Assembly (NCBI RefSeq): GCF_900115955.1
Contig: NZ_FOYL01000001.1
Span: 248,001 to 312,000, forward strand
Origin: Lentzea waywayandensis
GTDB taxonomy: Bacteria > Actinomycetota > Actinomycetes > Mycobacteriales > Pseudonocardiaceae
Length of the DNA: 64,000 nucleotides
Direction: 5' to 3'
Shown here: positions 17,368 to 33,133 of the stretch, piece after piece
How positions within the stretch are numbered: position 1 is the stretch's first letter
How the letters are laid out: each line of letters opens with the position of its first letter
Position numbers and translations under genes: made by a program
Notes under the pieces: model-generated
The model's database searches: none
What the model saw: only the letters and a program-made list of their open reading frames with translations
Told to the model about the DNA's origin: nothing

Positions 17368-18909
17368 ATGTCCCAGGACTGGTGGCGCCACGCCGTCATC
17401 TACCAGGTCTACGTGCGCAGCTTCGCCGACTCGGACGGCGACGGCGTCGGTGACCTGCCCGGCATCCGCTCACGCCTGCCCTACCTGCGCGACCTGGGCG
17501 TCGACGCGGTCTGGATCACGCCGTTCTACGCGTCGCCGATGGCCGACGGCGGCTACGACGTGGCGGACTACCGCGCGGTCGACCCGCAGTTCGGTGGACT
17601 CGACGACGTGCGCGCGTTGGTGGACGACGCACACACGCTCGGTATCCGGGTGATCGTCGACATCGTGCCGAACCACAGTTCCGACCAGCACGCGTGGTTC
17701 CAGGAGGCGCTGGCCGGACGTGGCCGCGAGCGCTACATGTTCCGCGAGGGCGTCGGGGACCAGCCGCCGAACGACTGGGAGTCCGTCTTCGGCGGGCCGG
17801 CGTGGACGCGGGTGGCCGACGGGTCCTGGTACCTGCACCTGTTCGCGCCGGAGCAGCCGGACCTGAACTGGGAGCTGCCCGAGGTGCGTGCGGAGTTCCG
17901 CGACGTGCTGCGGTTCTGGCTGGACCTGGGCGTCGACGGGTTCCGGGTGGACGTGGCGCACGGGATGATCAAGGCACCGGGGCTGCCCGACATCGGTCAC
18001 GCCGACCAGCTCAAGCTGCTGGGCACGGAGCCGTTGCCGTTCTTCGACCAGGACGGTGTGCACGAGATCCACCGTGAGTGGCGTGAGGTAGTCGACTCGT
18101 ACGAGGGCGAGCGTGTGCTCGTGGCGGAGGCGTGGACGCCTTCTGCCGAGCGGACGGCGATGTACCTGCGTGCCGACGAGATGCACCAGGCGTTCAACTT
18201 CCACTACCTGACCGCGGAATGGACGTCCGAGGCGTTGCGGTCGGTCATCGACTCGTCGCTGGCCGCTGTCGAACCTGTTGGGGCGCCTACTACGTGGGTG
18301 CTGTCGAACCACGACGTGCAACGGCACGTGACGCGGTACGGCGGCGGCGAGACCGGTGTGCGGCGTGCGCGCGCCGCGTTGGCGTTGATGCTGGCGTTGC
18401 CGGGATCGGTTTACCTCTACCAGGGCGAGGAACTGGGCCTTCCCGAGGTGCTGGACCTGCCGGACGAGGTGCTTCAGGACCCGATGTGGGAGCGGTCCGG
18501 CCACACCGAACGCGGTCGTGACGGGTGTCGCGTGCCGTTGCCGTGGGCGTCCTCCGGGCCGTCGCTCGGGTTCGGCACCGGCGGGTCGTGGCTGCCGCAG
18601 CCCGCGGAGTGGGCGAAGCTGTCGGTGGAGGCGCAGGCGGGCGACCAGGACTCGATGTTGTCCTTCTACCGCACCGCTTTGCGCGTGCGTCGTGAGAACC
18701 CGGCACTGGGCGCCGGCCTCACCTGGGTCGACGGTCCGGCCGGCGTGCTTCAGTTCGAACGCGACGGGGTCGCCTGCGCGGTGAACCTGTCCGGAGCGGT
18801 CGTGGAACTGCCGGATCCCGGCTCGGTGCTGCTTGCTTCGTCGTACTACGGAGTGCGCGACGGGCTGCTGCTCCTGCCACCCGACACCGCGGTGTGGTGG
18901 AAGCTCTGA
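17368..18909 (+). CDS. GH13 alpha-glucosidase
   Basis: A 513-residue cytoplasmic glycoside hydrolase. Family 13 regions are all visible: DIVPNHSS at 98-105, the nucleophile in GFRVDVAHG (Asp195), the acid/base in LVAEAW (Glu254), and the transition-state stabiliser in LSNHDVQRH (Asp316). It lacks a signal peptide and most resembles alpha-1,4-glucosidases or oligo-1,6-glucosidases that split imported malto- or isomalto-oligosaccharides. I place the start at ATG 17368 because GGAAGG at 17355-17360 has proper spacing to it; an ATG at 17362 is too close. Three LacI/MalR-type operator sites upstream suggest repression relieved by alpha-glucosides. No transporter genes are adjacent. Confidence 0.93.
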   Translation: MSQDWWRHAVIYQVYVRSFADSDGDGVGDLPGIRSRLPYLRDLGVDAVWITPFYASPMADGGYDVADYRAVDPQFGGLDDVRALVDDAHTLGIRVIVDIVPNHSSDQHAWFQEALAGRGRERYMFREGVGDQPPNDWESVFGGPAWTRVADGSWYLHLFAPEQPDLNWELPEVRAEFRDVLRFWLDLGVDGFRVDVAHGMIKAPGLPDIGHADQLKLLGTEPLPFFDQDGVHEIHREWREVVDSYEGERVLVAEAWTPSAERTAMYLRADEMHQAFNFHYLTAEWTSEALRSVIDSSLAAVEPVGAPTTWVLSNHDVQRHVTRYGGGETGVRRARAALALMLALPGSVYLYQGEELGLPEVLDLPDEVLQDPMWERSGHTERGRDGCRVPLPWASSGPSLGFGTGGSWLPQPAEWAKLSVEAQAGDQDSMLSFYRTALRVRRENPALGAGLTWVDGPAGVLQFERDGVACAVNLSGAVVELPDPGSVLLASSYYGVRDGLLLLPPDTAVWWKL

Positions 18910-18936
18910 CCAGCGATTTCATCTGATCAACAAAAA

Positions 18937-18959
18937 CTGTCAGACCCCCTGAGTACGGT
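18937..18959 (+). promoter_or_regulatory. DNA-damage (PafBC / RecA-NDp type) promoter of the first WGR gene
   Basis: CTGTCAG-AC, 8 bases, TACGGT. This matches the LexA-independent actinobacterial damage promoter (tTGTCRGtg-N8-TAnnnT) except for the first t and the tg, which read c and ac. Transcription would start near 18966, about 35 bases before the GTG. The motif arm AGACCCCCTGA also forms an 11-bp perfect inverted repeat with TCAGGGGGTCT at 18986-18996, which includes the ribosome site. The same promoter block, almost base for base, precedes the third paralogue. Confidence 0.7.
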
Positions 18960-19000
18960 CCGTGGACATCAGCTCCAGGTCGGATTCAGGGGGTCTTGTG

Positions 19001-22000
19001 GTGCGCAGGTGGGAGCTCGTCTCCGGCGGCTCGGCGAAGTTCTGGGAGGTCGGCCAGGCCGGTGCCGTGGTGACCGTCCGGTTCGGACGGCTGGGCACCG
19101 CCGGGCAGTCCCAGACCAAGGAGCTGACCTCGAAGGCGGCCGCGACGGCGCACGTCGCGAAGCTGGTGGCGGAGAAGGAGAAGAAGGGCTACCGGGCCGT
19201 CACCGACACTGCTCCTGCTGCTCCCGCGCCGGTCGTGGAGGCGCCTCCTCGCGACGAGGAGACGTGGGTGATGCCCGCGGAGTGGCTGGCGCAGGCGATG
19301 CGCAGACGCGACGCCAGACCGTTGCCGCGGTTCACCATCGACTCCGCGATGGCGCAGCGGTTCCGCGACCACGTGGCCGCGCACGCCGAGAAGATCGACG
19401 AGGCGCTGACGGCACCGGAGCACGAGCAGGATCTGGTGCGGGCGTTGCGGAATCACCACGAGGGCCGGCCTGATCCGCTGGGCGTCGCGGTGCTCCTGAC
19501 TCTGATCAAGTACGAGTACGGCATCTCTCCGGTGCACTGGTGGATCGAGGACTACGGGCTGCCGTTCGCCGCCGTGGCGGCCGTGCACATGGCGACCGTG
19601 ATCGACGGCTACGGCACGTTGAAGACGCACCTGCCGCACCACAGCACGAACCGCGACGCGGACGCCCTTGCGCTGATCGACGTCCGCACCGCGCTGGCGG
19701 CGGCGGACGACGCGACCTACGCCGCGACAGTGGCAGAGCTGGAGAAGGCCGGCACCACGTGGTTCGGTGTGGCCGCGCGCGCCTTCCTGGCGCCGACGCG
19801 GCAGGACTGGTTCGAGGAGGCGAACGAGTCAGGGGCTCCTACCTGGATGATCCACTGCTCGGCGACCACAGTCGAGCAGTTCGGCGCCCTGAAGCACGGG
19901 CATCTGATCTGGGCGCCGATGAGCGTGTTCACCGCGTTGCACGTCCTGGGCCCGGGCATAGCGCCGGTGCTCGACGCCGAACTGCGGGCGAAGGTCGAGT
20001 GGGGTGCGGAGTGCCGCAAGCTCGCGCTCGAGGTGCTGTCGGTGCTGCCGACCGACGAGACGTTCCTGATGCTGCTCAACCGCTTGCACGAGCGGTACGT
20101 GCGACCCGCGCTGCTGTCCGCGATGGCGGCGTTCCCGGCTCGGGCGCTGCGGCTGATGGCGCCCCGCGCGATCACCGACGTGGACGTCCGCAACCTCTTG
20201 CGTACCCACCTGCTGACGCATCCCGAGCTGGAACTGCCGTCCGGCATCGCCGATCTCCTGCCCGAGCCCACGCCTGAGGCACCGGCGGACGCGCTGCCGC
20301 GAGTGCTGGCCGAACCGCCGTGGAAGCACCGCCGCCCGCAACCGAAACCCTTGGTGCTGAAGGATCTCCCGGTCCCCGCCGCCCACCTCACATGGCTGCC
20401 GGGTGAGCGTGAGGAGTGGGAGGAGCTCACCGGCTGGTGGACGGGGCGCGGCGAGCGCTGGGAGGCGTTGGCCGCGGCGATCCGCGCCGGCCAGGGCCGT
20501 CACCACCACGATCACCGGCTGTTCGAGAGCGGCCCGGAGAAGCTCGCCCTCCCGCTGCTCGCTGACTGGACGCCCGCCGACACCTGGGGCAGCGAGGGCT
20601 GGGGCAGGCGCATCACGGCCCGGTTCGGCATGGACGCCCTGCCCGCGATGCTGCGCCTGGCGGCGAGCAACCCGCACGTGTCCGGCGTCGTGCTGCTCCC
20701 CTACGCCACCACCGAGGTCGCCGGGCTGATGGCGGACTGGTTGGTGCGCCTCAAGACCGCCCGCGCGTTCGCCCTGTCCTGGCTGTCCCGCCACCGCGAG
20801 GCCGCCGCCCGCCTCCTGCTGCCGGCCGCGCTCGGCGCGCCGGGTCCGGCACGGCGCAACGCCGAGTTCGCCCTGCGCCACCTCCACCTCGAAACCGGTG
20901 TGGACGTCATCGCCCTCGCCACCTCGTACAGCGCCGAGGCGGGCGCGGCGATCCGCACGCTGATCGAGATCGACCCGCTCGACGTCCTTCCCGCGAAGCT
21001 GCCGGTGATCGGCGAGTGGGTCGATCACCGGCTGCTGCCCCAGGTGCTGCTGGCCGACGGGGCCGGCGCGTTGTCCGCCGAAGCCGCGAAGAGCCTCCTG
21101 ATGACGGCCGCACTGTCCAAACAGGACGCCGTCTATCCCGGCCTGCCGCTCGCTGTCGAGGTGTGTGACCGCGCGTCGCTGGCGGAGTTCGCCTGGGCGG
21201 TGTTCGGCCGCTGGCAGGACGTGAGCGCCCCGGCCAAGGACGGCTGGGTGCTGGCCGCGCTCGGCTGGTTCGGCGACGACGAGACGGTGCGCCGCCTGGC
21301 ACCGCTGATCCGTTCCTGGCCGGGCGAGAGCCAGCACGCCCGCGCCGTGGCGGGCCTCGACGTGCTCGCCCAGATCGGCAGCGAGGTGGCGCTGACCCAC
21401 CTGAACAGCATCGCGGAGAGGGTGAAGTTCAAGGGCCTCAAGGCGAAGGCCCAGGAGAAGGTGTCCGACATCGCCGCCGCGCTGGGCCTGAGCCGCGACC
21501 AGCTGTCCGACCGTCTCGTGCCCAGGCTGGGCCTGGATGACGCGGCGACGCTGGTGATCGACTACGGCCCGCGCCAGTTCACCGTGGGTTTCGACGAGCA
21601 GCTCAAGCCCTACGTCCTGGACGCGGAGGGCAAGCGCCGCAAGGACCTTCCCAAGCCCGGCGCGCGCGACGACCAGGAGCTCGCACTGGCGGAGCACAAG
21701 CGTTTCGCGACGTTGAAGAAGGACGTCCGCACCATCGCGTCCGACCAGATCCACCGCCTGGAACGCTCGATGGTCGACCAGCGCACCTGGACCACCGAGG
21801 AGTTCCACACGGTCCTCGCCGGCCATCCGCTGCTGTGGCACCTGGTCCGCCGACTGGTGTGGATCACCGACAGCGGCCTGACGTTCCGGCTGGCCGAGGA
21901 CCGCACCCTGGCGGACTCCTCCGACGACGAGGTGACCCTGCCCGCGGAGGCCGTCGTGCGGGTGGCCCACCCGGTCGACCTGGCCGGCACTCTGCCGGCC

Positions 22001-22429
22001 TGGGGCGAGGTGTTCGCGGACTACGAGATCCTGCAACCGTTCCCGCAGCTCGGCCGTCCCGTCCACGCGTTCACGCCGGGCGACACGGTCGCCCAGTTGC
22101 ACAAGTACCTGGGCAAGGACGTGCCGGTGGGCAAGTTCCTCGGCCTCACCAAACGGGGCTGGGTGCGCGCCGAGCCCCAGGACAACGGCCACGAGCCGTG
22201 GCTGCTCCGCCCGCTGCCGTCCGGCGGCGCGCTGGTGGCGAATCTGGATCCCGGCATCTCGGTGGGCGCGATCGACCTGTTCCCCGAGATGAGGGTCGCC
22301 GAACTCTGGTTCTCCACCAGCGGAGAGGGCGACTGGGTCGCACCCCGCGACGGTGGCCCGTCCACTTTCGACGTGGACGCGGTCACCGCCTCCGAGCTCC
22401 TCTCGGAACTGGAATCACTGCACGCGTGA
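19001..22429 (+). CDS. WGR domain / DUF4132 (MolR/YehI-like) protein, paralogue 1
   Basis: A 1142-residue protein. Residues 1-70 are a WGR domain (VRRWELVSGGSAKFWEV; VTVRFGRLGTAGQSQTKEL), the module that binds DNA ends or nicks in PARP-type proteins; the eponymous Trp is Phe here. After a short Ala/Pro linker, about 750 residues of helical, HEAT-like repeats follow, then DUF4132 at about 840-1020 (LDDAATLVIDYGPRQF; RRKDLPKP). E. coli YehI/MolR has the same WGR plus DUF4132 order. I use GTG 19001, with AGGGGG upstream, because both paralogues start at the same VRRWEL. A damage-type promoter precedes it. It has the shortest linker of the three and lies 89 bases before paralogue 2. Confidence 0.9.
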   Translation: MRRWELVSGGSAKFWEVGQAGAVVTVRFGRLGTAGQSQTKELTSKAAATAHVAKLVAEKEKKGYRAVTDTAPAAPAPVVEAPPRDEETWVMPAEWLAQAMRRRDARPLPRFTIDSAMAQRFRDHVAAHAEKIDEALTAPEHEQDLVRALRNHHEGRPDPLGVAVLLTLIKYEYGISPVHWWIEDYGLPFAAVAAVHMATVIDGYGTLKTHLPHHSTNRDADALALIDVRTALAAADDATYAATVAELEKAGTTWFGVAARAFLAPTRQDWFEEANESGAPTWMIHCSATTVEQFGALKHGHLIWAPMSVFTALHVLGPGIAPVLDAELRAKVEWGAECRKLALEVLSVLPTDETFLMLLNRLHERYVRPALLSAMAAFPARALRLMAPRAITDVDVRNLLRTHLLTHPELELPSGIADLLPEPTPEAPADALPRVLAEPPWKHRRPQPKPLVLKDLPVPAAHLTWLPGEREEWEELTGWWTGRGERWEALAAAIRAGQGRHHHDHRLFESGPEKLALPLLADWTPADTWGSEGWGRRITARFGMDALPAMLRLAASNPHVSGVVLLPYATTEVAGLMADWLVRLKTARAFALSWLSRHREAAARLLLPAALGAPGPARRNAEFALRHLHLETGVDVIALATSYSAEAGAAIRTLIEIDPLDVLPAKLPVIGEWVDHRLLPQVLLADGAGALSAEAAKSLLMTAALSKQDAVYPGLPLAVEVCDRASLAEFAWAVFGRWQDVSAPAKDGWVLAALGWFGDDETVRRLAPLIRSWPGESQHARAVAGLDVLAQIGSEVALTHLNSIAERVKFKGLKAKAQEKVSDIAAALGLSRDQLSDRLVPRLGLDDAATLVIDYGPRQFTVGFDEQLKPYVLDAEGKRRKDLPKPGARDDQELALAEHKRFATLKKDVRTIASDQIHRLERSMVDQRTWTTEEFHTVLAGHPLLWHLVRRLVWITDSGLTFRLAEDRTLADSSDDEVTLPAEAVVRVAHPVDLAGTLPAWGEVFADYEILQPFPQLGRPVHAFTPGDTVAQLHKYLGKDVPVGKFLGLTKRGWVRAEPQDNGHEPWLLRPLPSGGALVANLDPGISVGAIDLFPEMRVAELWFSTSGEGDWVAPRDGGPSTFDVDAVTASELLSELESLHA

Positions 22430-22455
22430 ACGCGGGAACGGTTGGTCGTCGATCA

Positions 22456-22478
22456 ACGTCAGACCGGCTCGGCACGGT
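22456..22478 (+). promoter_or_regulatory. Decayed copy of the damage-type promoter before paralogue 2
   Basis: The sequence ACGTCAG-AC, 8 bases, CACGGT aligns with the promoter of paralogue 1. Two key T residues are C here (TGTCAG to CGTCAG, TACGGT to CACGGT), while GTCAGAC and ACGGTC are kept at the same spacing. It probably came with the gene duplication and is now weak or dead, so paralogue 2 may depend on read-through from paralogue 1. Confidence 0.45.
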
Positions 22479-22518
22479 CACCGGCAACACACTTCGGATC
22501 GGAAGCAGGGAGCAGTCA

Positions 22519-25500
22519 GTGCGCAGGTGGGAGCTCGTCTCGGGCGGCGCGGCGAAGTTCTGGGAGATCGGTCAGGACGGTGCCGCGGTCACCGTCCGGT
22601 TCGGACGACTGGACACGCACGGCCAGACCCAGACCAAGGAGCTGGCGTCCGCGGAGGCGGCACAGGCGCACGTCGCGAAGCTGGTGGCGGAGAAGGAGAA
22701 GAAGGGCTACCGCGCGGTCGGCTCCGCCGAGGTGGCCGCGCCCCGGCCAGGCGACGGGCCGGCCTCCACCTCCGACGCCGCACAGCCCGCTGACGCCCTA
22801 CCGGTGACCACCTCGCCCGCCCCACAGCCCGCTGACGCTCCCCCTGCGACCACCTCCCCAGCCGAGAAGCCCGTAGCCGTCGACGAGGACACCTGGGTGA
22901 TGCCCAAGGCCTGGCTGCGCGACGCGGTGCGGCAGCGGGGTTTCCACCCCGCTCCCGAGTTCTCCGTCGACCCCGAACTGGCGGAGGAGGCCCGGCGGCG
23001 CGTCGGCCAGCAGACGGACACCACGGTCGAGCGGATCCTGTCCGAACCGGCCTCCGACCCCGATCTCGTTCAGGCGGCGCGCGAGCACCTCGCCGGACGG
23101 CCGAATCCCACCGGGGCGGCGGCGATCGCGGCGATCATCTCCAGCGGCGAGCAGTCCGTGCACGCCTGGATCGCCGACCACGGCCTGGTGTTCGCGACGG
23201 AGGCCACCGTCGAGTTCATGAGGCTGATGTGCACACGCGAGTGGCTTTCGCAGCAGCGCGCGTACGGCAACGAACGGCTGGCGTCCCGTGATGGGTACTA
23301 CCACATCACGATCGGCAGCGCCGACTGCAAGATGCTGCTGGCGATCCGGTACGCGCTCGCGATCGCGGACGACGCCGAGCGGGACGCCGCGGAGACCGCG
23401 CTGGGCAGGCTCGACGAGATCGACGAGCCCAACGTCAAGCTGGTGCGGGCGTTCCTGATGCCAGGACGGCCCGGCTGGTTCCAGGAGGCATGCCAGACGC
23501 CGCACACGGGCACCCGCTGGTGGCTCCTTCATTGCAGTGCCGGCACCTTCGAGGAGTTCGAGAGCGCGCCGTCCTCGGTGGCCGGCAACTCGACCGTCCT
23601 CCACACGGCGCTGTACGTGCTGGGTCCGGCTATCGCGCCGTTGCTCGCAGACGCGCTCGACCACCAGTACCAGCGCGCGGACACCCGCAAGCAGGTGCTG
23701 AAGACGCTCGTCGCGCTGCCCATCGACGAGGCGTTCACGATTCTGCTCGACCGGATCGACACGAAGTACGTGCGCCCGGCCGTGCTGTCGATGATGACGG
23801 CGTACCCGGCGCGGGCAGCCAGGCTGCTCGGCGAACGCTCCGCCCGCAACGAGGAGTTCCGCCGGCTGCTCAGCGTGCACCTGCGGTCGTATCCGCACCT
23901 GGACGCGCCCACCGGTTTCGTGGAGGTCGAGTCCTCGGCGGTGCCGGAGGCATCGGCGGAGGAGCTGCCCGCGTTGCTGGCGTCGCCGCCGTGGCTGCAC
24001 CGCAAGCCGGCGGTGAAGCCGGTGGTGGTGCCGGATCTCCCGGTGCCCGGACCGTCGCTCACGTGGCAGCCGGGTGAGCGGGAGGAGTGGCTGAAGGACG
24101 GCCACTGGGACACCCACGCCTACAAGACCTGGCAGCACTGGCTGGCGGAGTACAAGGCCGGCCGGATCGGCTACCGCATGGCCGACCTGCTCGTCGGGGC
24201 ACCCGAGGACGAGGTGCGTCACCTGCTCGCGGACTGGCAGCCCAACCTGGGCTGGAGTGCTGAATCCGCGGGCAAGCGACTCGCCGCGAAGTTCGGCTTC
24301 GACGCGTTGCCTCCGCTGCTGCGCATCGTGGAGAGGAACTCCGCCACGGCCGTGATCGTGCTGCCGTTCGCGACGCCCGAGGTCGCCGCGCTGATGGCGG
24401 ACTGGCTGGTGCGGCTCAAGCAGGTCCGCAAGACGGCACTGAGCTGGCTCGCCCGGCACCGCGAGATGGCCGCGCGTCTCCTGATTCCCGCTGCCCTGGG
24501 CAAGCCCGGTACCGAACGGCGCAACGCCGAGACCGCGATCCGCCACCTGCACGGCCTCGGGGTGGACGTCGTGGCGCTGGCTCCCACCCCGGAGGCGGCC
24601 GAGGGCCTGCGGACCTTCCTGTCCGTCGACCCCGTCGACGTGCTGCCCGCCAAGCTGCCGGTGATCGGCGAGTGGGCGGACACCCGCCTGTTGCCCCAGG
24701 TCCTGTTGCGCGATCGCAAGCAGGCTCTGTCCCCTGAGGCCGCACGTCATCTGCTGATGACGGCGGCGCTGTCCAAGCCGGGCGACATCTACGCCGGACT
24801 GCCGATCGCCCGCGAGGCGCTCGACCCCGGCTCGCTGGCGGAGTTCGCGTGGGCGGTCTTCGGGCGCTGGCAGGAGGTCGGCGCGCCGCCGAAGGAGGGC
24901 TGGGCGCTGACCGCGCTCGGCTGGTTCGGCGACGACTCGACGGTCCGCGCGCTGTCGCCGCTGATCCGGGTGTGGCCGGGCGAGAGCCAGCACACCAGGG
25001 CGGTGGCGGGTCTCGACGTGCTCGCCGACATCGGCACCGAGGTCGCCCTGTCGCACCTGAACAGCATCGCGGAGAAGGTGAAGTTCAAGGGCCTCAAGAC
25101 CAAGGCCCAGGAGAAGGTCGCCCAGATCGCCGACGAGCTGGGCCTGTCCCGCGACCAGCTGGCGGACCGCCTCGTGCCGCGCCTGGGCCTCGACGACGCC
25201 GCGAGCCTGGTGATCGACTACGGCCCGCGCCAGTTCACGGTCGGCTTCGACGAGCAGCTCAAGCCCTACGTCCTCGACCCGGACGGCAAGCGCCGCAAGG
25301 ACCTCCCGAAGCCCGGCGCGAAGGACGACCAGGACCAGGCCCCGCTGGAGCACAAGCGGTTCGCGGCACTGAAGAAGGACGTCCGCGCCGTCGCGTCCGA
25401 CCAGATCCACCGGCTGGAACGGGCGATGGTCGACCAGCGCACGTGGACCGCCGAGGAGTTCCACGCCGTCCTCGCCGGCCACCCGCTGCTCTGGCACATC

Positions 25501-26085
25501 GTCCGCCGGCTCGTGTGGATCACCTCTGACGGCCTCTCGTTCCGCCTGGCGGAGGACCGCACGCTCGCCGACTCCAGCGACGACGAGTTCACGCTCCCCG
25601 AGGACGCCACCGTCCGCGTGGCGCACCCGGTGGACCTCCAGGCCGAGCTGGAGGCGTGGGGCGAGGTCTTCGCCGACTACGAGATCCTCCAGCCGTTCCC
25701 GCAACTGGGCCGCCCCCTGCACCTGGTACCCGCGGGCGAGAACCTCCTGCCCCAGCTGAAGAAGTACTGCGACGTCGACCTCCCGATCGGCAAGATCCTC
25801 AGCCTCACCAAGAAGGGCTGGATCCGCGGCGAGCCCCAGGACGGCGGGGTGGAGTGCTGGATCACCCGTCCGCTACCGTCCGGCGGCGCCCTGGTCGCGT
25901 CGCTCGACCCCGGCATCGCGGTGGGCGCGATCGACGTCTTCCCCGAGGTCAAGTTCACCGAACTGTGGTTCTCGGCCGACGGGCACGGCTACTGGTCGTC
26001 CCAGCGCAACGGGTCGGGCACGTTGGAGGCAGACGCCATCACGGCCTCCGAGCTGCTGTCCGAACTGGAGTCACTGCAGTCGTAA
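22519..26085 (+). CDS. WGR domain / DUF4132 (MolR/YehI-like) protein, paralogue 2
   Basis: An 1188-residue protein built like its neighbours: WGR domain at 1-70 (AKFWEIGQDGAAVTVRFGRL), an Ala/Pro/Thr linker at about 72-118 with short repeats (DALPVTTSPAPQPADA), helical repeats, and DUF4132 at about 884-1065. The C-terminal third is the most similar to the other two copies, the region just after the linker the least, which suggests that the shared core is constrained while the middle part has specialised. GTG 22519 has AGGGAG at 22507-22512. Only a decayed damage-type promoter precedes it. The gap to paralogue 3 (114 bases) carries a fresh promoter. Confidence 0.9.
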   Translation: MRRWELVSGGAAKFWEIGQDGAAVTVRFGRLDTHGQTQTKELASAEAAQAHVAKLVAEKEKKGYRAVGSAEVAAPRPGDGPASTSDAAQPADALPVTTSPAPQPADAPPATTSPAEKPVAVDEDTWVMPKAWLRDAVRQRGFHPAPEFSVDPELAEEARRRVGQQTDTTVERILSEPASDPDLVQAAREHLAGRPNPTGAAAIAAIISSGEQSVHAWIADHGLVFATEATVEFMRLMCTREWLSQQRAYGNERLASRDGYYHITIGSADCKMLLAIRYALAIADDAERDAAETALGRLDEIDEPNVKLVRAFLMPGRPGWFQEACQTPHTGTRWWLLHCSAGTFEEFESAPSSVAGNSTVLHTALYVLGPAIAPLLADALDHQYQRADTRKQVLKTLVALPIDEAFTILLDRIDTKYVRPAVLSMMTAYPARAARLLGERSARNEEFRRLLSVHLRSYPHLDAPTGFVEVESSAVPEASAEELPALLASPPWLHRKPAVKPVVVPDLPVPGPSLTWQPGEREEWLKDGHWDTHAYKTWQHWLAEYKAGRIGYRMADLLVGAPEDEVRHLLADWQPNLGWSAESAGKRLAAKFGFDALPPLLRIVERNSATAVIVLPFATPEVAALMADWLVRLKQVRKTALSWLARHREMAARLLIPAALGKPGTERRNAETAIRHLHGLGVDVVALAPTPEAAEGLRTFLSVDPVDVLPAKLPVIGEWADTRLLPQVLLRDRKQALSPEAARHLLMTAALSKPGDIYAGLPIAREALDPGSLAEFAWAVFGRWQEVGAPPKEGWALTALGWFGDDSTVRALSPLIRVWPGESQHTRAVAGLDVLADIGTEVALSHLNSIAEKVKFKGLKTKAQEKVAQIADELGLSRDQLADRLVPRLGLDDAASLVIDYGPRQFTVGFDEQLKPYVLDPDGKRRKDLPKPGAKDDQDQAPLEHKRFAALKKDVRAVASDQIHRLERAMVDQRTWTAEEFHAVLAGHPLLWHIVRRLVWITSDGLSFRLAEDRTLADSSDDEFTLPEDATVRVAHPVDLQAELEAWGEVFADYEILQPFPQLGRPLHLVPAGENLLPQLKKYCDVDLPIGKILSLTKKGWIRGEPQDGGVECWITRPLPSGGALVASLDPGIAVGAIDVFPEVKFTELWFSADGHGYWSSQRNGSGTLEADAITASELLSELESLQS

Positions 26086-26094
26086 CACCGTAAA

Positions 26095-26148
26095 CAGGGG
26101 GTCTGATCAGCTCTTTAAGATCACCGTAAAGAATTGTCAGACCCCCTG
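26095..26148. repeat. 12-bp inverted repeat enclosing the promoter region of paralogue 3
   Basis: CAGGGGGTCTGA at 26095-26106 and TCAGACCCCCTG at 26137-26148 are perfect complements, 30 bases apart in an AT-richer spacer (CTCTTTAAGATC and so on). The right arm lies inside the damage-type promoter. The same arm sequence forms an inverted repeat around the promoter of paralogue 1, on the other side. It may be a second protein-binding site; a terminator for paralogue 2 is the alternative, since it starts 9 bases after that gene's stop. Confidence 0.6.
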
Positions 26149-26156
26149 AGTAACGT
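26134..26156 (+). promoter_or_regulatory. DNA-damage (PafBC / RecA-NDp type) promoter of paralogue 3 and the MoxR operon
   Basis: TTGTCAG-AC, 8 bases, TAACGT. It fits the consensus tTGTCRGtg-N8-TAnnnT at every position except the tg, which is ac. The 8-base spacer (CCCCTGAG) is identical to that before paralogue 1. The predicted start would be near 26163, about 37 bases before GTG 26200. Since all genes from 26200 to 36035 overlap or touch, this promoter would drive the whole WGR-MoxR-DUF5682-VWA-SWIM operon. Confidence 0.75.
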
Positions 26157-26199
26157 CCGTGCACATCAACTCCCTTGTGTGGCCCCAGGAGGTACAGCA

Positions 26200-29100
26200 G
26201 TGCGCAGGTGGGAACTCGTCGCGGACGGCTCCGCGAAGTTCTGGGAGATCGGACAGGACGGCGCGACGGTGACCGTCCGGTTCGGACGGCTGGGAACCGC
26301 CGGCCAGACCCAGACCAAGGAGCTGGCCTCCGCCGAGGCGGCCGACGCGCACGTCACGAAGCTGGTGGCGGAGAAGGAGAAGAAGGGCTACAGACCGGAA
26401 GGCGCCGCCGCCGAACCACAGCAGCCCGCGGCCACCGAGCCCACCGCCGCACAGCTCGCCACCACCACGCCCGGCGCGCCGCAGCCCTCCGCCCGGCAGC
26501 ACGCCACCACCACGCCCGGTGCCCAGCCCTCCGCCCAGCAACCTGCTGCCCAACCACTCGCCGCCGCACCTCCAACGCCCCCCAAACCCGCCACCCAACG
26601 CCCCGCCACCGAGCCCGCCGCCACCACTCCCACAGCCCCCCTCGACGAAGACACCTGGGTAATCCCCAAGGCATGGCTGCGCGACGCGGTGCGCCAGCGC
26701 GAGTTCGACCCGGCGCCGGAGTTCGCCATCGACCCGGCGAAGGCCGAGCAGGCCCGGCAGCAGATCACCGAACAGGCGGAGGCGATCGAGAACGGCCTCA
26801 CTGCCAAGGGCTCGAAGGCAGAACTGGTCAGCGCGGCCCGCGAACACCTGGCCGGGCAACCGACCCCTATCGGCGCGGCGGCGATCGCGGCCATCACGAA
26901 GCCGGGCGTGCCCGCCGTGCACGCCTGGATCGCCGATCACGGCCTCGCGTTCGCCACCAAGGCGGTCGTCGAGCTCATGGGTCTGACCTTCTCGGACGAG
27001 TGGGACGACAAGCGCGGCAAGTGGACCGGCATCTGCCTCCAGTACAACCACCGCAGCGGCTTCCAGACGTCGATCGGCGAACCGGAAGGTCTGATGCTGA
27101 CCGCCCTCCGGTACGCGATCGCCACCGCTGGCCCCGAGGAACGCGCGGCCGCCGAGGGCGAACTGGAGCAGTTCGGCAAGTCGAAGACCGAGAAGGAACT
27201 CCGGTCCTTCCTGATGCCCGAGCGGGCGGAGTGGTTCACCGAGGTCCGCAAGCAGAACTACACGCGGAGCCGGTGGTGGATGCTGCCGTGCTGCGCCCGG
27301 AGCCTCGAGGACTTCAAGACGGCCGAGCAGTCCGTCACGGCGTCGGCGTTCCTGCTCTACACGGCGGTGTACGTGCTGGGGCCGGCCGTCGCGCCGTTGC
27401 TCGCGGAGGAGCTCGACTCCGACAGCTACCACCAGCGAACGGGCGGCCGCAAGCAGGCTTTGACCGTGCTCGCGGCCTTACCGACGGACGAGGCGTTCAC
27501 GATCCTGCTCGACCGGCTGGACGGCAAGTACGTGCGGCCCGCCGTGGTGTCGGCGATGAGGGCGTTCCCCGTGAGGGCCGCGCGGCTGCTGGCCGAGCGC
27601 GCGTCGTCGAGTGATCACGCACGCCGGCTGCTGCACATCCACCTGCGGAGCAACCCGCACCTGACCGTGCCCGACGAGGTCGTCGCGCTGCTCGCCGAGT
27701 CCGCCGAGGCGATCATGCCGGAGGCGACCGCGGACCAGCTTCCGGCGCTGCTGGCCTCACCGCCGTGGCTCAGCCGCAAGAAGCCGGTGAAGCCCGTCGT
27801 GCTGGCGGATCTGCCGGTGCCCGAGGCGGCGGTGATCTGGGAGCCGGGCGAGCACGAGCAGTGGCTCGCGTCCGGCGCGGAGTGGGTGCAGGACCACCAC
27901 GACTGGCGCAACCTGCTCAAGGAGTACCAGGCCGGCCTGATCGGCTACTACGACAACGACCTGTTCCTCCTCGCTCCCGAGGAGGAGGTGCGGCACCTTC
28001 TCGCGGACTGGAAGCCGGTCTACAGCCACGGCGTCGAGGAGTGGGGCAAGAACATCGCCGCCCGGTTCGGTGTCGACGCCGCACCGGCGCTCATCCGGCA
28101 CGTCCAGTCCGCGGCGGCGGGGACCGGGATGGTGCTGCTGCCCTTCGCCACCGTCGAGGTGGCCACGCAGATGGCCGACTGGTTCGCCCGTACCAAGGCG
28201 GCCCGGCGCTGGGGCCTCGACTGGCTCGCCCGGCACCGCGAGCAGGCCGTCCGTCTCCTCATCCCGGCGGCGGCCGGGAAGGCGGGCGTCCCTCGCCGCA
28301 ACGCCGAGGCGGCGCTGCGGCACCTGAACAACAACCTCGGTGTCGACGTGGCGGCCATCGCCAAGGAATGCGGTGCCGAGGCCGCGATCGACGTCGTGCT
28401 CTCGGTCGACCCGGTCGACGTGCTGCCCGCGAAGCTGCCGGCGATCGGCGAGTGGGCGGACACCCGGCTGCTGCCGCAGGTGCTGCTGGCGGACCGCAGG
28501 CACGCCCTGTCCGCCGAGGTCGCCGGTCATCTGCAGATGACGGCCGCGCTGTCCAAGCCGGGCGAGCTCTACGCGGGCCTGCCGATCGCCCGTGAGGCAC
28601 TCGACCCCGACTCGCTGGCGGAGTTCGCGTGGGCCGTCTTCCAGGCGTGGGAGCAGGCGGGCGCGCCGCCGAAGGAGAGCTGGGCGCTGAGCGCACTCGG
28701 CTGGTTCGGCGACGACGACACCGTGCGCAGGCTGTCGCCGCTGATCCGCAACTGGCCCGGTGAGAGCCAGCACGCCAGGGCGGTCAGCGGACTCGACGTG
28801 CTGGCCGACATCGGCACCGAGGTGGCGCTGTCGCACCTGAACAGCATCGCGGAGAAGGTGTCGTTCAAGGGCCTCAAGACCAGGGCGCAGGAGAAGGTCG
28901 CCCAGATCGCGGCCGAGCTCGGCCTGTCCCGCGACCAGCTGTCGGACCGGCTGGTCCCGCGCCTGGGCCTGGACGAGGCGGCGACCCTGGTGATCGACTA
29001 CGGCTCCCGCCGGTTCACCGTGGGCTTCGACGAACAGCTCAAGCCGTTCGTGCTGGACCCGGACGGCAAGCGCCGCAAGGATCTGCCGAAGCCCAGTGCG

Positions 29101-29865
29101 AAGGACGACGAGGACCTCGCACCGCTGGAGCACAAGCGGTTCATGGCGCTGAAGAAGGACGTCCGCACCATCGCGTCCGACCAGATCCAACGGCTCGAAC
29201 GCGCCATGGTCGACCAGCGCGAGTGGAGCGCCGAGGAGTTCCTCACGGTCCTCGCCGCGCATCCGCTGCTGTGGCACCTGGTCCGCCGCCTGGTCTGGAT
29301 CACCGACGAGGGCACCTCGTTCCGCCTGGCCGAGGACCGCACGCTCGCCGACGAGCACGACGACGAGTTCACGTTGTCCGAGACCGCCACGGTCCGTGTG
29401 GCGCACGCGGTCGAGCTGCGGGAGGCGTCGGCGGCCTGGGGCGAGGTCTTCGCGGACTACGAGATCCTCCAGCCGTTCCCGCAGCTGGGCCGTCCGGTCC
29501 ACCTGCTGACCTCCGCCGACGACCTGCTCCCCCGGCTGAAGAAGTACTGCGACACCCCCTACCCGATCGGCAAGATCCTGGGTCTGACCAAGAAGGGCTG
29601 GGTGCGCGGGACACCGCAGGACGCGGGCGTCGAGTGCTGGATCACCCGGCCGTTCCCGGACGGCGGCGCGCTCGTCGCCAGGCTCGAGCCCGGCATCGCG
29701 GTGGGCGCCATGGACGTCTTCCCCGAGGTCGGTTTCAGCGACATGTGGTTCTCGCGCAACGGTCACGGCGCGTGGTCCGCGCCGTCGGACGCGCCCACCA
29801 CCTACGAGATCGCCCCGATCACCCTCTCCGAGCTCTTCTCCGAACTGGAGTCCCTGCTGCCATGA
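26200..29865 (+). CDS. WGR domain / DUF4132 (MolR/YehI-like) protein, paralogue 3
   Basis: A 1221-residue protein: WGR domain at 1-70 (AKFWEIGQDGATVTVRFGRL), a long low-complexity linker of Ala, Pro, Thr and Gln at about 72-148, helical repeats, and DUF4132 at about 917-1100 (LDEAATLVIDYGSRRF). It is the longest copy, mainly because of the linker. GTG 26200 follows a perfect AGGAGG at 26187-26192; a longer open frame back to 26134 would start inside the promoter and is rejected. Its stop overlaps the MoxR start as ATGA, so this copy, not the other two, is directly tied to the ATPase. It is the probable direct equivalent of YehI in the yeh locus. Confidence 0.9.
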   Translation: MRRWELVADGSAKFWEIGQDGATVTVRFGRLGTAGQTQTKELASAEAADAHVTKLVAEKEKKGYRPEGAAAEPQQPAATEPTAAQLATTTPGAPQPSARQHATTTPGAQPSAQQPAAQPLAAAPPTPPKPATQRPATEPAATTPTAPLDEDTWVIPKAWLRDAVRQREFDPAPEFAIDPAKAEQARQQITEQAEAIENGLTAKGSKAELVSAAREHLAGQPTPIGAAAIAAITKPGVPAVHAWIADHGLAFATKAVVELMGLTFSDEWDDKRGKWTGICLQYNHRSGFQTSIGEPEGLMLTALRYAIATAGPEERAAAEGELEQFGKSKTEKELRSFLMPERAEWFTEVRKQNYTRSRWWMLPCCARSLEDFKTAEQSVTASAFLLYTAVYVLGPAVAPLLAEELDSDSYHQRTGGRKQALTVLAALPTDEAFTILLDRLDGKYVRPAVVSAMRAFPVRAARLLAERASSSDHARRLLHIHLRSNPHLTVPDEVVALLAESAEAIMPEATADQLPALLASPPWLSRKKPVKPVVLADLPVPEAAVIWEPGEHEQWLASGAEWVQDHHDWRNLLKEYQAGLIGYYDNDLFLLAPEEEVRHLLADWKPVYSHGVEEWGKNIAARFGVDAAPALIRHVQSAAAGTGMVLLPFATVEVATQMADWFARTKAARRWGLDWLARHREQAVRLLIPAAAGKAGVPRRNAEAALRHLNNNLGVDVAAIAKECGAEAAIDVVLSVDPVDVLPAKLPAIGEWADTRLLPQVLLADRRHALSAEVAGHLQMTAALSKPGELYAGLPIAREALDPDSLAEFAWAVFQAWEQAGAPPKESWALSALGWFGDDDTVRRLSPLIRNWPGESQHARAVSGLDVLADIGTEVALSHLNSIAEKVSFKGLKTRAQEKVAQIAAELGLSRDQLSDRLVPRLGLDEAATLVIDYGSRRFTVGFDEQLKPFVLDPDGKRRKDLPKPSAKDDEDLAPLEHKRFMALKKDVRTIASDQIQRLERAMVDQREWSAEEFLTVLAAHPLLWHLVRRLVWITDEGTSFRLAEDRTLADEHDDEFTLSETATVRVAHAVELREASAAWGEVFADYEILQPFPQLGRPVHLLTSADDLLPRLKKYCDTPYPIGKILGLTKKGWVRGTPQDAGVECWITRPFPDGGALVARLEPGIAVGAMDVFPEVGFSDMWFSRNGHGAWSAPSDAPTTYEIAPITLSELFSELESLLP

Positions 29866-30932
29866 CCAGCACCCAGACGATGCAGCGTCCTCCCGCCGAG
29901 GTCCGCTACGCCGACGAGCTCGCCCGGCTGCGGGACACCGACACCGCGCCCAGGCCGCCGGGCTGGGCGCTGAGCCTCGAAGCCGCGCGCCGGTTCGTGG
30001 TGGGCGACGAGAACCGGGGCATCAGCAGGAAGTTCGTGGGCGATCCGTCCCTTGTGGACAGAGCGCTGGTCACGCTGGCCACGAGCCGCGGCCTGATGCT
30101 GGTCGGTGAGCCGGGCACGGCGAAGTCACTGCTGTCCGAGCTGATCGCGGCGGCGGTGTGCGGCGAGTCGACGCTGACGATCCAGGGTGGCGCGGCCACC
30201 ACCGAGGACCAGATCAAGTACTCGTGGAACTACGCGCTGCTGGTCGCGGAGGGTCCGTCGCCGCGCTCGCTCGTGCCGGCGCCGATGCTGCGGGGCATGG
30301 CCGAGGGCAAGATCGTGCGGTTCGAGGAGATCACCCGCTGCCCGCTCGAGGTCCAGGACTGCATGCTGTCGATGCTGTCCGACCGCGTGATGGCGATCGG
30401 TGAGCTGAACGGCCCGGACGGCATGGTGTTCGCACAGGACGGGTTCAACGTGATCGCCACAGCGAACACGCGTGACCGGGGCGTCAACGAGATGAGCGCC
30501 GCGCTAAAGCGGCGGTTCAACTTCGAGACGGTGTTCCCGATCGCGGACTTCGACACCGAGCTCGCGCTGGTCGAGCAGGAGGCGGCGAAGCTGCTGGAGA
30601 AGTCGGGCGTCGAGCTCGCGCCGAGGCGTGACGTGCTGGAGGTCCTGGTCCGCACGTTCCGCGATCTGCGCGAGGGCGGCGACCGGCTCACCACGGTGAT
30701 GAGCACGGCCGAGGCGGTGTCGGTGGCGCACGCGGTCGGACTGCGGGGGTGGTTCCTGCGCGGCGAGGTCGGGTCGGCCGCAGACGTCGTGGAGTGCCTG
30801 GCGGGCACGGCGGCGAAGGACAACGCGGAGGACCTGGCGCGGTTGCGGCGGTACCTGGAGCAGCACGCGTCGCGGCGCAAGGGCAAGCAGTGGCAGGAGC
30901 TGCACCGCGCCCGGCACCTGCTGCCCGGCTGA
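29862..30932 (+). CDS. MoxR-family AAA+ ATPase (YehL-like)
   Basis: A 356-residue AAA+ ATPase. Walker A is GEPGTAKS at 82-89, Walker B IVRFEEI at 151-157, sensor 1 is in VIATANTRD at about 197-205, and the arginine-finger segment is ALKRRFNFE at about 214-222. MoxR ATPases are chaperone-like machines that act with VWA-domain partners to remodel or insert cofactors into target proteins; the yehL subfamily is defined by neighbours of the kinds seen here. The ATG overlaps the WGR paralogue 3 stop by 4 bases, and its own stop overlaps the next start (TGATG). It would therefore be made in step with the WGR and DUF5682 proteins. Confidence 0.95.
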   Translation: MTSTQTMQRPPAEVRYADELARLRDTDTAPRPPGWALSLEAARRFVVGDENRGISRKFVGDPSLVDRALVTLATSRGLMLVGEPGTAKSLLSELIAAAVCGESTLTIQGGAATTEDQIKYSWNYALLVAEGPSPRSLVPAPMLRGMAEGKIVRFEEITRCPLEVQDCMLSMLSDRVMAIGELNGPDGMVFAQDGFNVIATANTRDRGVNEMSAALKRRFNFETVFPIADFDTELALVEQEAAKLLEKSGVELAPRRDVLEVLVRTFRDLREGGDRLTTVMSTAEAVSVAHAVGLRGWFLRGEVGSAADVVECLAGTAAKDNAEDLARLRRYLEQHASRRKGKQWQELHRARHLLPG

Positions 30933-33133
30933 TGGGGGCCGTGTTCGTCGGCGTCCGGCACCACAGTCCCGCCTGTGCCCGGCTGGTCGCCGCCACGATC
31001 TCCGAACAGCAGCCCGCGTACGTGCTCATCGAAGGTCCGGCCGACTTCAACGAGCGCATCGACGAGCTGCTGCTCGGCCACGAGCTGCCCGTCGCGTTGT
31101 TCAGCTACTCCGACCAGCACGCGTCGTGGTCGCCGTTCTGCGACTACTCGCCGGAGTGGGTGGCGATCACCGAGGCACGCCGGTGCGGGGCCGAGGTCAG
31201 GTTCATCGACCTGCCCGCGTGGCACGAGGCGTTCCGCGACGTCAGCAACAGGTACGCGGACGCGGAGCTGCGCTACACCGAGGTCGTCGAGCGGTTGTGC
31301 CGGGAGTTCGCGGTCGACAACGTCGACGCGCTCTGGGATCACCTCTTCGAGTGCGAGACCGAGCCGAAGGGCATGGCCGAGTACTTCGACCTGCTGCGCG
31401 GCACGGCGACCGCGGACGAGGGCGACTCGGCCCGTGAGGAGTACATGGCGCGCTGGGTGCGGGCGGCGGTGAAGGACGCGGGCGACCGGCCCGTCGTCGT
31501 GATCACCGGCGGCTTCCACACGGCTGCGCTCAAGGCGAAGCTCGACGGCACCACCGAGTGGCCCGAGGTTCCGGAACGTGAGAGAGGCGCGAGCTATCTC
31601 GTGCCGTACTCGCACGCACGGCTGGACGCGTTCACCGGCTACCAGTCGGGAATGCCGTCTCCCGGCTACTACCAGCAGGTCTGGGAGGCGGGGTCGCAGC
31701 GCGCGGCGGACTGGCTGGTCGAGTCGGTGGCGACGCGGCTGCGCAGGCGCCGGCAGCCGGTGTCGACGGCCGACCTCATCGCGGCGCGCACCCAGGCCGG
31801 GGCGCTGGCCCGGTTGCGCGGTCACGAGAACCTGGCGCGCACGGACGTGCTCGACGGGCTGACCAGCGCGTTGATCTCGGAGGACCTGACGCAGCCGCCG
31901 CCGTGGACGCGGCGCGGCACCTTGCAGCCCGGCGCGCACCCGGCGTTGATCGAGATGATCGGGGCGTTGCGGGGCGGCAAGGTCGGCAGGCTGCACCCGG
32001 ACACGCCGGCACCGCCGCTGGTCAACGCCGTGCAGGAGCTGTTGCGGACGCACGGGCTCGACCAGGAGGGCAAGGTCGCGCTCGACCTCACGGACGCGGA
32101 GGCGTTGGAGCGCAGCAGGATCCTGCATCGCCTGCGGGTGCTGCGGATTCCCGGCTTCGAACGCACGAGCGGGCCGTCCGAGGGCGCCGCGCCGCAGCTG
32201 GACGAGCAGTGGACGCTGCGGCCGATCGAGGAACGGCTGGCCGCGCTGATCGAGGCCGCCGAGAACGGTGCCACGCTGGAGGAGGCGGCAGGGGCGGTCC
32301 TGGAACGCCGCTCCCGGGACGCCCAGCTGGACCAACTGGCCACCATCCTGTTCGACGCGGTGCTGTGCGGGATCTCGGCGCTACCCGGCAAGGTCCAGCA
32401 GACCCTCAACGAAGGCGTCCAGGCGACGGGCGATCTCACGGCGCTCGGGGCCGTGCTGAGCGGGGTGCTCGGACTGTGGCGGCACGACAGGTTGTTCGGC
32501 ACCAGGAAGGATCCGCTGCTGGGCTCGGTGATCGACGTGGGCACGGCGCGGGTGCTGTGGCTGGTCGAGGGCCTGCACGGCGGCCCGGCTCCGGCAGATC
32601 CACACCGCCTCAAGGCCATGGCGGCGACCAGGGACGCGGTGCTGCACGCGAAGTCCGCGCTGTCGCTGGACATCGCGGACGTCACGGGCGTCGCGACCAG
32701 AGTGAGCGCCGACGTGGAGGCGCCACCGGATCTGCGCGGCGCGGCACTCGGCCTCGCCTGGACTCTCGGCAGTCAGCCGGACGTGCGCAAGGTGCGGAGC
32801 ATCGAGGCGCTCGGCGACTGGCTCGCCGGGTTGTTCGCGGTCGCGCGGGAAGAGGTGCTGGCGAGCCCTGACCTGGTCGGGGTGCTCGACGAACTGGTCA
32901 GCGCGATGACCGAGGACGAGTTCCTGGTGGCGCTGCCCGCGTTGCGGCTCGCCTTCAGCTACTTCCCGCCCAGGGAGAGGGAGACCATCGCGGCCACCGT
33001 CCTCGCCCATCGCGGTGTCGAGGGCAGCGCGAAGGGCGTCACCCGTCTCACCGTCGACCCGATGGTCGTGGCGGAGGCGATGGCGATCGAGAAGCGCGTG
33101 GACGCGTTGCTGGTGAAGGGCGGGCTGGCATGA
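30932..33133 (+). CDS. DUF5682 protein (YehM-like)
   Basis: A 733-residue soluble protein. The N-terminal 260 residues hold the DUF5682 hallmarks FVGVRHHSPACARL, VLIEGPADFNERID, CDYSPEW, FIDLPAWHEAF and VVVITGGFHTAAL. The GxHHSP and GGFHT pieces recall TraB/EreA-like hydrolase folds, but no activity is known and this is only a resemblance. The remaining 470 residues are helical and Ala/Leu-rich. In E. coli the same family (YehM) sits between the MoxR ATPase and the VWA protein, as here. ATG 30932 shares a base with the upstream TGA, and the stop overlaps the VWA start as ATGA. Confidence 0.88.
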   Translation: MGAVFVGVRHHSPACARLVAATISEQQPAYVLIEGPADFNERIDELLLGHELPVALFSYSDQHASWSPFCDYSPEWVAITEARRCGAEVRFIDLPAWHEAFRDVSNRYADAELRYTEVVERLCREFAVDNVDALWDHLFECETEPKGMAEYFDLLRGTATADEGDSAREEYMARWVRAAVKDAGDRPVVVITGGFHTAALKAKLDGTTEWPEVPERERGASYLVPYSHARLDAFTGYQSGMPSPGYYQQVWEAGSQRAADWLVESVATRLRRRRQPVSTADLIAARTQAGALARLRGHENLARTDVLDGLTSALISEDLTQPPPWTRRGTLQPGAHPALIEMIGALRGGKVGRLHPDTPAPPLVNAVQELLRTHGLDQEGKVALDLTDAEALERSRILHRLRVLRIPGFERTSGPSEGAAPQLDEQWTLRPIEERLAALIEAAENGATLEEAAGAVLERRSRDAQLDQLATILFDAVLCGISALPGKVQQTLNEGVQATGDLTALGAVLSGVLGLWRHDRLFGTRKDPLLGSVIDVGTARVLWLVEGLHGGPAPADPHRLKAMAATRDAVLHAKSALSLDIADVTGVATRVSADVEAPPDLRGAALGLAWTLGSQPDVRKVRSIEALGDWLAGLFAVAREEVLASPDLVGVLDELVSAMTEDEFLVALPALRLAFSYFPPRERETIAATVLAHRGVEGSAKGVTRLTVDPMVVAEAMAIEKRVDALLVKGGLA

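Follow-up and report, generated by a model that had tools for sequence, protein, structure and literature searches.

What switches on a yeh-type locus in an actinomycete? The locus considered here lies in a 64,000-nucleotide (nt) stretch of Lentzea waywayandensis DNA (contig NZ_FOYL01000001.1, positions 248,001 to 312,000; the window), where three WGR-DUF4132 genes are followed by genes for MoxR, DUF5682, VWA and YehQ-like proteins. An earlier reading of the letters alone (the sequence-only reading) had proposed that two promoters of the PafBC/RecA-NDp type put these genes under the control of DNA damage. We arrive at a similar explanation: both sites appear to be genuine PafBC-dependent damage promoters that would drive the locus along with recA, uvrABC, polA and ligA, and we propose that the products work as a repair machine. 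We estimate the probability of this reading at about 0.87. The motif, the gene set behind it, the pafBC genes, the conservation and the gene overlaps are seen directly; that the locus is induced, where its transcripts start, which genes are co-transcribed and how the proteins work are inferences.

Promoter motifs in the window and across the genome

The two sites are located on the forward strand. Promoter 1 (18938-18959) consists of TGTCAG as the -26 element (18938-18943), ten nucleotides of spacer and TACGGT as the -10 element (18954-18959). Promoter 2 (26135-26156) has TGTCAG at 26135-26140, a spacer of the same length and TAACGT at 26151-26156. With the preceding base included, 18937-18959 reads C-TGTCAG-AC-CCCCTGAG-TACGGT and 26134-26156 reads T-TGTCAG-AC-CCCCTGAG-TAACGT, which confirms the two motifs and the identical eight-nucleotide (N8) spacer described before. 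The distance of 41-44 bases claimed between the motifs and the GTG starts also agrees with our count: 41 nt from promoter 1 to GTG 19001 (38 nt to the alternative GTG 18998) and 43 nt from promoter 2 to GTG 26200. Within the window there are two matches to the strict pattern TGTCRG-N10-TAnnnT, where 0.13 are expected, and at least two were found in 1 of 100 shuffles. No ordinary sigma-70 promoters and no T-tail terminators were detected in 18700-19100 and 25950-26300.

In passages of PMC8151990 the PafBC consensus is given as TGTCGG, TGTCAG or TGTCAC, 10 N, TA, 3 N and T. The sequence-only reading had quoted it with 'tg' directly after TGTCRG. The rest of the motif fits, but both window sites carry AC at that position, as does the site of the genome's own recA gene (TGTCAGACCCCGCCAGTAGCGT; recA at C14:164954-165739).

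We searched the 10.15-Mb genome with the strict pattern, using the same pattern read backwards as control, and found 102 sites versus 15. The 100 distinct sites that were analysed include both window sites. A coding-like ATG or GTG follows TAnnnT by 6 nt (9 sites) or 7 nt (29 sites) at 38 of the 100, which is the signature of a leaderless promoter. The same spacing was seen at 1 of the 15 backwards sites and at 36 of 249 other TAnnnT sequences in the same stretches, a background that may itself include real leaderless promoters. We scanned the proteins downstream of all 38 leaderless-type sites against Pfam and assigned functions by our own judgement. Fifteen belong to DNA repair or replication: UvrB, UvrC, PolA, RadA, RecQ, two LigA-type ligases, SbcD, an SbcC-like SMC protein, a DnaN-like clamp, DnaX, a DinG/YoaA-like helicase, two RecB-like nucleases and a GIY-YIG exonuclease. 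One further gene encodes PafA. Another 37 sites have a downstream open reading frame (ORF), and the 12 of these that were scanned, picked mainly for length and thus not a random sample, gave RecA, UvrA, two GyrB-like proteins, the proteasomal ATPase, a WGR-beta-propeller protein and six proteins with no obvious link. A PafBC-type regulon with many leaderless-type genes is thereby indicated outside the mycobacteria.

The activator is encoded as well. Two adjoining WYL proteins (L112) match the solved PafB (1e-83) and PafC (1e-86) chains. According to passages of PMC11804915, PafBC acts through binding of single-stranded DNA and sigma adaptation, and the structure places PafB on the -26 motif. 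In Lentzea, build-up of single-stranded DNA would thus lead PafBC to let RNA polymerase with sigma-A start at promoters made of TGTCRG (around -26) and TAnnnT (-10). Promoter 1 would drive WGR-DUF4132 genes 1 and 2, and promoter 2 gene 3 with the coupled MoxR-DUF5682-VWA-YehQ-like genes, so that the whole yeh-type locus would be induced jointly with recA, uvrABC, polA and ligA. The likeness to the mycobacterial PafBC (RecA-NDp, P1) promoters comprises TGTCRG, N10 and TAnnnT, the presence of recA and other repair genes among the targets, and the encoded PafB and PafC. The Lentzea sites differ in having AC (34) more often than TG (24) after TGTCRG among the 78 sites that do not belong to the hairpin repeat described below, and in that 38 of these 78 have a start codon 6-7 nt after TAnnnT.

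The sites could also be real promoters that are read by ClgR, by another WYL protein or by sigma-A alone, and would then not be specifically PafBC damage-induced. The genome holds 16 WYL matches, and according to passages of PMC5656591 this P1 motif is also recognised by ClgR in mycobacteria. However, the motif heads recA and uvr genes, the encoded PafB and PafC closely match solved proteins, and the structure assigns the -26 motif to PafB. We consider this explanation quite unlikely.

Returning to PafBC-dependent promoters, the 6-7 nt rule of the leaderless-type sites leads us to predict transcription starts at A 18966 (promoter 1) and A 26163 (promoter 2). Unlike at the leaderless-type sites, these predicted starts would not fall at the start codons, as the window genes carry leaders. 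Of the 98 other sites analysed in this genome, just 2 have the N8 CCCCTGAG, and because it is this rare, common descent of the two promoters seems a better reason for their identical spacers than a rule of the motif. A decayed copy of the motif, CGTCAG-N10-CACGGT (22457-22478, forward strand), lies before gene 2 at a similar distance from its GTG at 22519; it is not a strict match.

Two further observations were made among the genome sites. The pafA gene (L078) and the proteasomal ATPase gene (L080) both bear the motif, and this suggests that the regulon of this genome extends to Pup-proteasome genes. At L109, three adjoining DUF4240 genes each begin 6-7 nt after a strict motif of their own.

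Conservation before homologous genes

Using gene 1 as query, we found a match at E <= 1e-50 in 38 of 200 genomes of the family and at E <= 1e-30 in 17 of 394 genomes at class level and 4 of 396 at phylum level, the Lentzea source included. For the conservation count we took 71 distinct family genes outside the source genome and looked for the strict motif at most 350 nt upstream of the first aligned residue; 19 rows were left out as fragments, for short upstream sequence or for weak scores. The motif was present upstream of 51 of the 71 homologues. The controls gave 1/71 on the other strand, 0/71 for the backwards pattern and 0/71 inside the gene, with a mean of 0.04 for the Markov shuffle. 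Counted by genome the motif was found in 32 of 37, and counted by genus in all 13 that have the gene, although the relatives in this count are not independent. The median distance from its start to the first aligned residue is 63 nt (50-66 nt in 35 of the 51); the motif is kept before homologues down to about 45% identity. Each of three named Lentzea loci has exactly two strict sites, before genes 1 and 3. The spacers vary between genera (e.g., TGTCGGTGCCCGTTCCTAGGGT) while the motif is kept; since 13 genera share it with changed spacers, simple inheritance of an inert sequence is unlikely.

The assignment to the PafBC/RecA-NDp type made in the sequence-only reading is thus supported, because the motif heads the genome's own repair genes, the genome encodes both PafB and PafC, and homologues have kept the motif in front of them. 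The motif search in related loci that it had suggested succeeded within the family and less fully outside it, where the strict motif was found at 8 of 14 genes in 7 of 13 genomes. In all 23 genomes searched the motif was more frequent than its backwards control. The excess was weak in G043 (28 vs 18), G553 (21 vs 10) and G202 (42 vs 22), and five genomes of family f21 had 82-102 motif sites versus 4-15 backwards. One genome, G353, has 182 motif sites, many of those listed being identical (TGTCGGTGCCCGCCCGTAGGGT), and these are perhaps a repeat family that carries a PafBC-type promoter.

Several observations speak against PafBC control. The strict motif is lacking at 20 of the 71 family genes and 6 of the 14 genes of other families; some of these genes follow another gene of the array, and two are one base off. 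Among homologues from the plasmid collection (Embleya, Nonomuraea and two Rhodococcus), none of the four had the motif in the stretches examined. The leaderless spacing is shared by the 36 other TAnnnT sequences mentioned above, and 22 of the 38 leaderless-type genes have no evident repair role. One paper, in the passages available, describes the M. smegmatis motif as not conserved in Streptomyces venezuelae. Finally, 22 of the 100 sites analysed in this genome are copies of an intergenic hairpin repeat, as classed by a simple pattern on the 3' flank. Twenty of these 22 carry AC after TGTCRG, and at none does a coding frame begin 6-7 nt after the motif, so a match to the motif is by itself no proof of a promoter.

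This repeat raises the question of whether the window sites are themselves copies of an intergenic hairpin element that resembles repetitive extragenic palindromic (REP) sequences and looks like a promoter motif without acting as one. The two other sites with N8 CCCCTGAG are both of the repeat class, this class makes up more than a fifth of the sites, and promoter 2 sits in an inverted repeat. In contrast, the A-rich 5' flank of the window sites (AAAA, AGAA) is found at 43 of the 78 non-repeat sites, the window sites included, but at only 4 of the 22 repeat sites, and other genera keep the motif before their homologues with quite different spacers, such as the one cited above. We therefore regard this possibility as very improbable. 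The 23 sites with no coding-like ORF overlap with the 22 repeat sites.

In the repeat copies (L024, L039, L043, L054, L060, L064, L065, L067-L069, L071, L083, L089, L101, L103 and others) the motif runs directly into a G-rich hairpin (e.g., gtaggggttcccg...gggtacccctgc), and many of the copies have no evident ORF. The class may represent either a REP-like element or small hairpin RNAs driven by PafBC.

Damage-linked control in other phyla

The same gene set is found in E. coli, where the yeh locus includes yehF/yehH, yehI, yehL, yehM, yehP and yehQ. In E. coli K-12, yehF/yehH corresponds to molR. The two loci share DUF4132 proteins (two in E. coli), MoxR, DUF5682, VWA and YehQ-like proteins, and in both the control of the WGR gene appears linked to damage. 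For the first gene, the K-12 annotation gives yehF plus the pseudogene yehH, whereas Lentzea has three WGR-DUF4132 genes and two promoters. In place of the PafBC motif, the molR-region WGR gene of K-12, yehF, has a LexA-type box (AACTGGATAAAATTACAGGG) just upstream of its ATG. The box is also present in pF17EC0245-1 and in four of five further records labelled E. coli; the fifth is without it, and what precedes that gene resembles the tail of a further DUF4132 gene. When two of the E. coli loci were divided into 1697 windows of 100 nt, 96 windows contained a bare CTGN10CAG. The case for the box is thus based on position, conservation and print and not on rarity, and molR is listed as SOS/LexA-regulated in passages of published papers. 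With the simple patterns used, no box was seen at the alpha- and betaproteobacterial loci of Agrobacterium, Sinorhizobium and Iodobacter.

In Deinococcus, the drA0165-drA0166 operon (DUF4132) and dr2173 (WGR) are strongly upregulated on depletion of DdrO, according to passages of PMC8533742. These genes, compared here by their published description only, have the same domains and go up on depletion of a damage-response repressor, with DdrO in place of PafBC. The sequence-only reading expected damage induction to give a first physiological role to a yeh-type locus. That goes too far in view of LexA-regulated molR and the response of DRA0166 and DR2173 to DdrO depletion, as described in these passages. 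Damage wiring of WGR/DUF4132 genes is therefore not wholly new. Among the literature matches listed (titles, term counts and some passages, with subscription literature mostly outside), no paper reports PafBC control of WGR-DUF4132/yeh-type genes, which sets these targets apart from those of the mycobacterial promoters, and none is a functional study of the yeh locus. Among the matches listed for one of the searches, no paper containing PafBC also contains WGR.

Given the situation in E. coli, Lentzea might control the locus through LexA, with the PafBC-like motif being secondary. GAACN4GTTC is the LexA box pattern, and exact matches occur at 25960-25971 and 22301-22312, while the stretch between genes 1 and 2 has a form with one mismatch (22436-22447). 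However, the match at 25960 lies inside gene 2 and about 240 nt before gene 3, and both exact matches read in frame as ELWF close to gene ends and look coding. The window holds 31 exact or one-mismatch matches versus 21.5 expected, and none is found in 18700-19000 or 26086-26200. As neither promoter has an exact or one-mismatch match, we rejected LexA control in Lentzea as a candidate and hold it to be extremely improbable.

We conclude that the yeh-type locus is very probably turned on by DNA damage. The locus is conserved across phyla, MoxR of E. coli and Lentzea being 66% identical. A damage-type promoter in all 13 family genera with the gene, together with the LexA and DdrO links, provides a concrete hypothesis and conditions under which to look for a phenotype.

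Genes of the locus and their products

All genes of the locus are on the forward strand. WGR-DUF4132 gene 1 (18998-22429) starts at GTG 18998 or 19001 and matches Pfam WGR at 3.2e-14 and DUF4132 at 4.6e-57. Compared with the intact E. coli WGR-DUF4132 protein of pF17EC0245-1, its product is 36% identical over residues 398-1141 and 48% identical across 54 WGR residues. Gene 2 (22519-26085, start GTG 22519; WGR 4.5e-13, DUF4132 3.1e-56 in the longer frame) is probably read through from promoter 1. Gene 3 (26200-29865; WGR 1.1e-15, DUF4132 8.3e-54) encodes a protein with 32% identity to YehI over 537 alignment columns. It overlaps by 4 nt with the gene for the MoxR AAA+ ATPase (29862-30932), which is 66% identical to E. 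coli YehL. Then follow the YehM-like DUF5682 protein (30932-33133, start ATG 30932; Pfam 8.5e-106), the family being annotated for one yehM product, and the CoxE-like VWA protein (33130-34233; VWA_CoxE 3.5e-55), which is 60% identical to YehP. The last frame (34230-36035) matched no Pfam family at E 0.001. It shares 27% identity with YehQ (E 6e-42), the CSCG...CRHR cysteine/histidine motif being aligned between the two, and Pfam SWIM gave no match. WGR-DUF4132, MoxR, DUF5682 and VWA, the yeh-type set, are thus present together. Because consecutive genes overlap by 1-4 nt from gene 3 onward, the order suggests one transcript of gene 3, MoxR, DUF5682, VWA and YehQ-like genes, headed by promoter 2.

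An inverted repeat (26095-26148, forward strand) lies between genes 2 and 3, with arms at 26095-26106 (CAGGGGGTCTGA) and 26137-26148 (TCAGACCCCCTG). The right arm contains most of the -26 element of promoter 2 and part of its spacer, and the upstream arm is recognisable in several Lentzea relatives. Since the right arm is upstream of the predicted start, we rejected the repeat as an RNA element of the second operon's own transcript; it could act only in read-through RNA from gene 2. Such RNA folds at -32.2 kcal/mol (z -5.33), and the repeat could insulate the second operon against read-through from gene 2.

WGR domains bind damaged DNA in PARPs. We modelled WGR-DUF4132 with AlphaFold2 (12 sequences), and the model is of low confidence, with a mean predicted local distance difference test (pLDDT) of 65.4 and a predicted template modelling score (pTM) of 0.37. 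It shows the WGR domain, a long helical solenoid and a poorly predicted C-terminal (DUF4132) part. Foldseek gave no match to this model at E <= 0.001. At weaker E values, the WGR protein 2ra8 appeared at 3.1e-03 with many HEAT-type proteins around it; 2ra8 was matched by sequence too (3.1e-12), and of the fold-search matches we relied on the WGR match alone. The MoxR protein resembles the AAA modules of Midasin by sequence (best E 3.6e-08). In the function we propose, the WGR domain would attach to DNA as it does in PARPs, the DUF4132 protein with its long helical shape would serve as adaptor, and the MoxR/VWA pair would form an AAA+ remodelling machine that acts on proteins at damaged DNA.

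The induction could be real and the locus still be a conflict or anti-phage module that is deployed on damage instead of a repair machine. MoxR-VWA pairs form the core of proposed conflict systems in passages of PMC7159879, a core that Lentzea shares, and PADLOC gave weak matches: WGR_XIII to the three WGR domains (8.4e-07 to 2e-04), JukA to the VWA protein (0.022) and REase_II to the MoxR protein (0.037). These matches, however, span the WGR domain only or are near chance. The MoxR protein shares 66% identity with E. coli YehL and the VWA protein 60% with YehP, and no variable effector was seen at the locus. The Lentzea MoxR also differs from those of the MoxR-vWA ternary systems in scoring 19.8 bits with bpMoxR, for which the cut-off is 27, and no VMAP, iSTAND or FtsH families were found among the Pfam matches of the operon. 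With bpMoxR below its cut-off and the PADLOC matches weak, we rejected membership in the ternary systems. A conflict module in the wider sense has some chance of being correct, but we find it doubtful.

For the repair machine, we tentatively suggest a broader picture. The WGR-DUF4132/MoxR-VWA set might be an ancient and widespread damage machine that was wired independently to LexA in E. coli, to DdrO in Deinococcus and to PafBC in actinomycetes, and that acts as a WGR-targeted, Midasin-like AAA+ remodeller at lesions.

The WGR model matches four genes in the Lentzea genome, and three of them, genes 1 and 3 and a gene on contig C12, lie directly behind a strict motif; the fourth is gene 2, which follows gene 1. 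The C12 gene (L031; G000 C12:45200-48900) encodes a WGR domain fused to a beta-propeller, and its motif reads TGTCGGACCCCCTTGCTACGGT.

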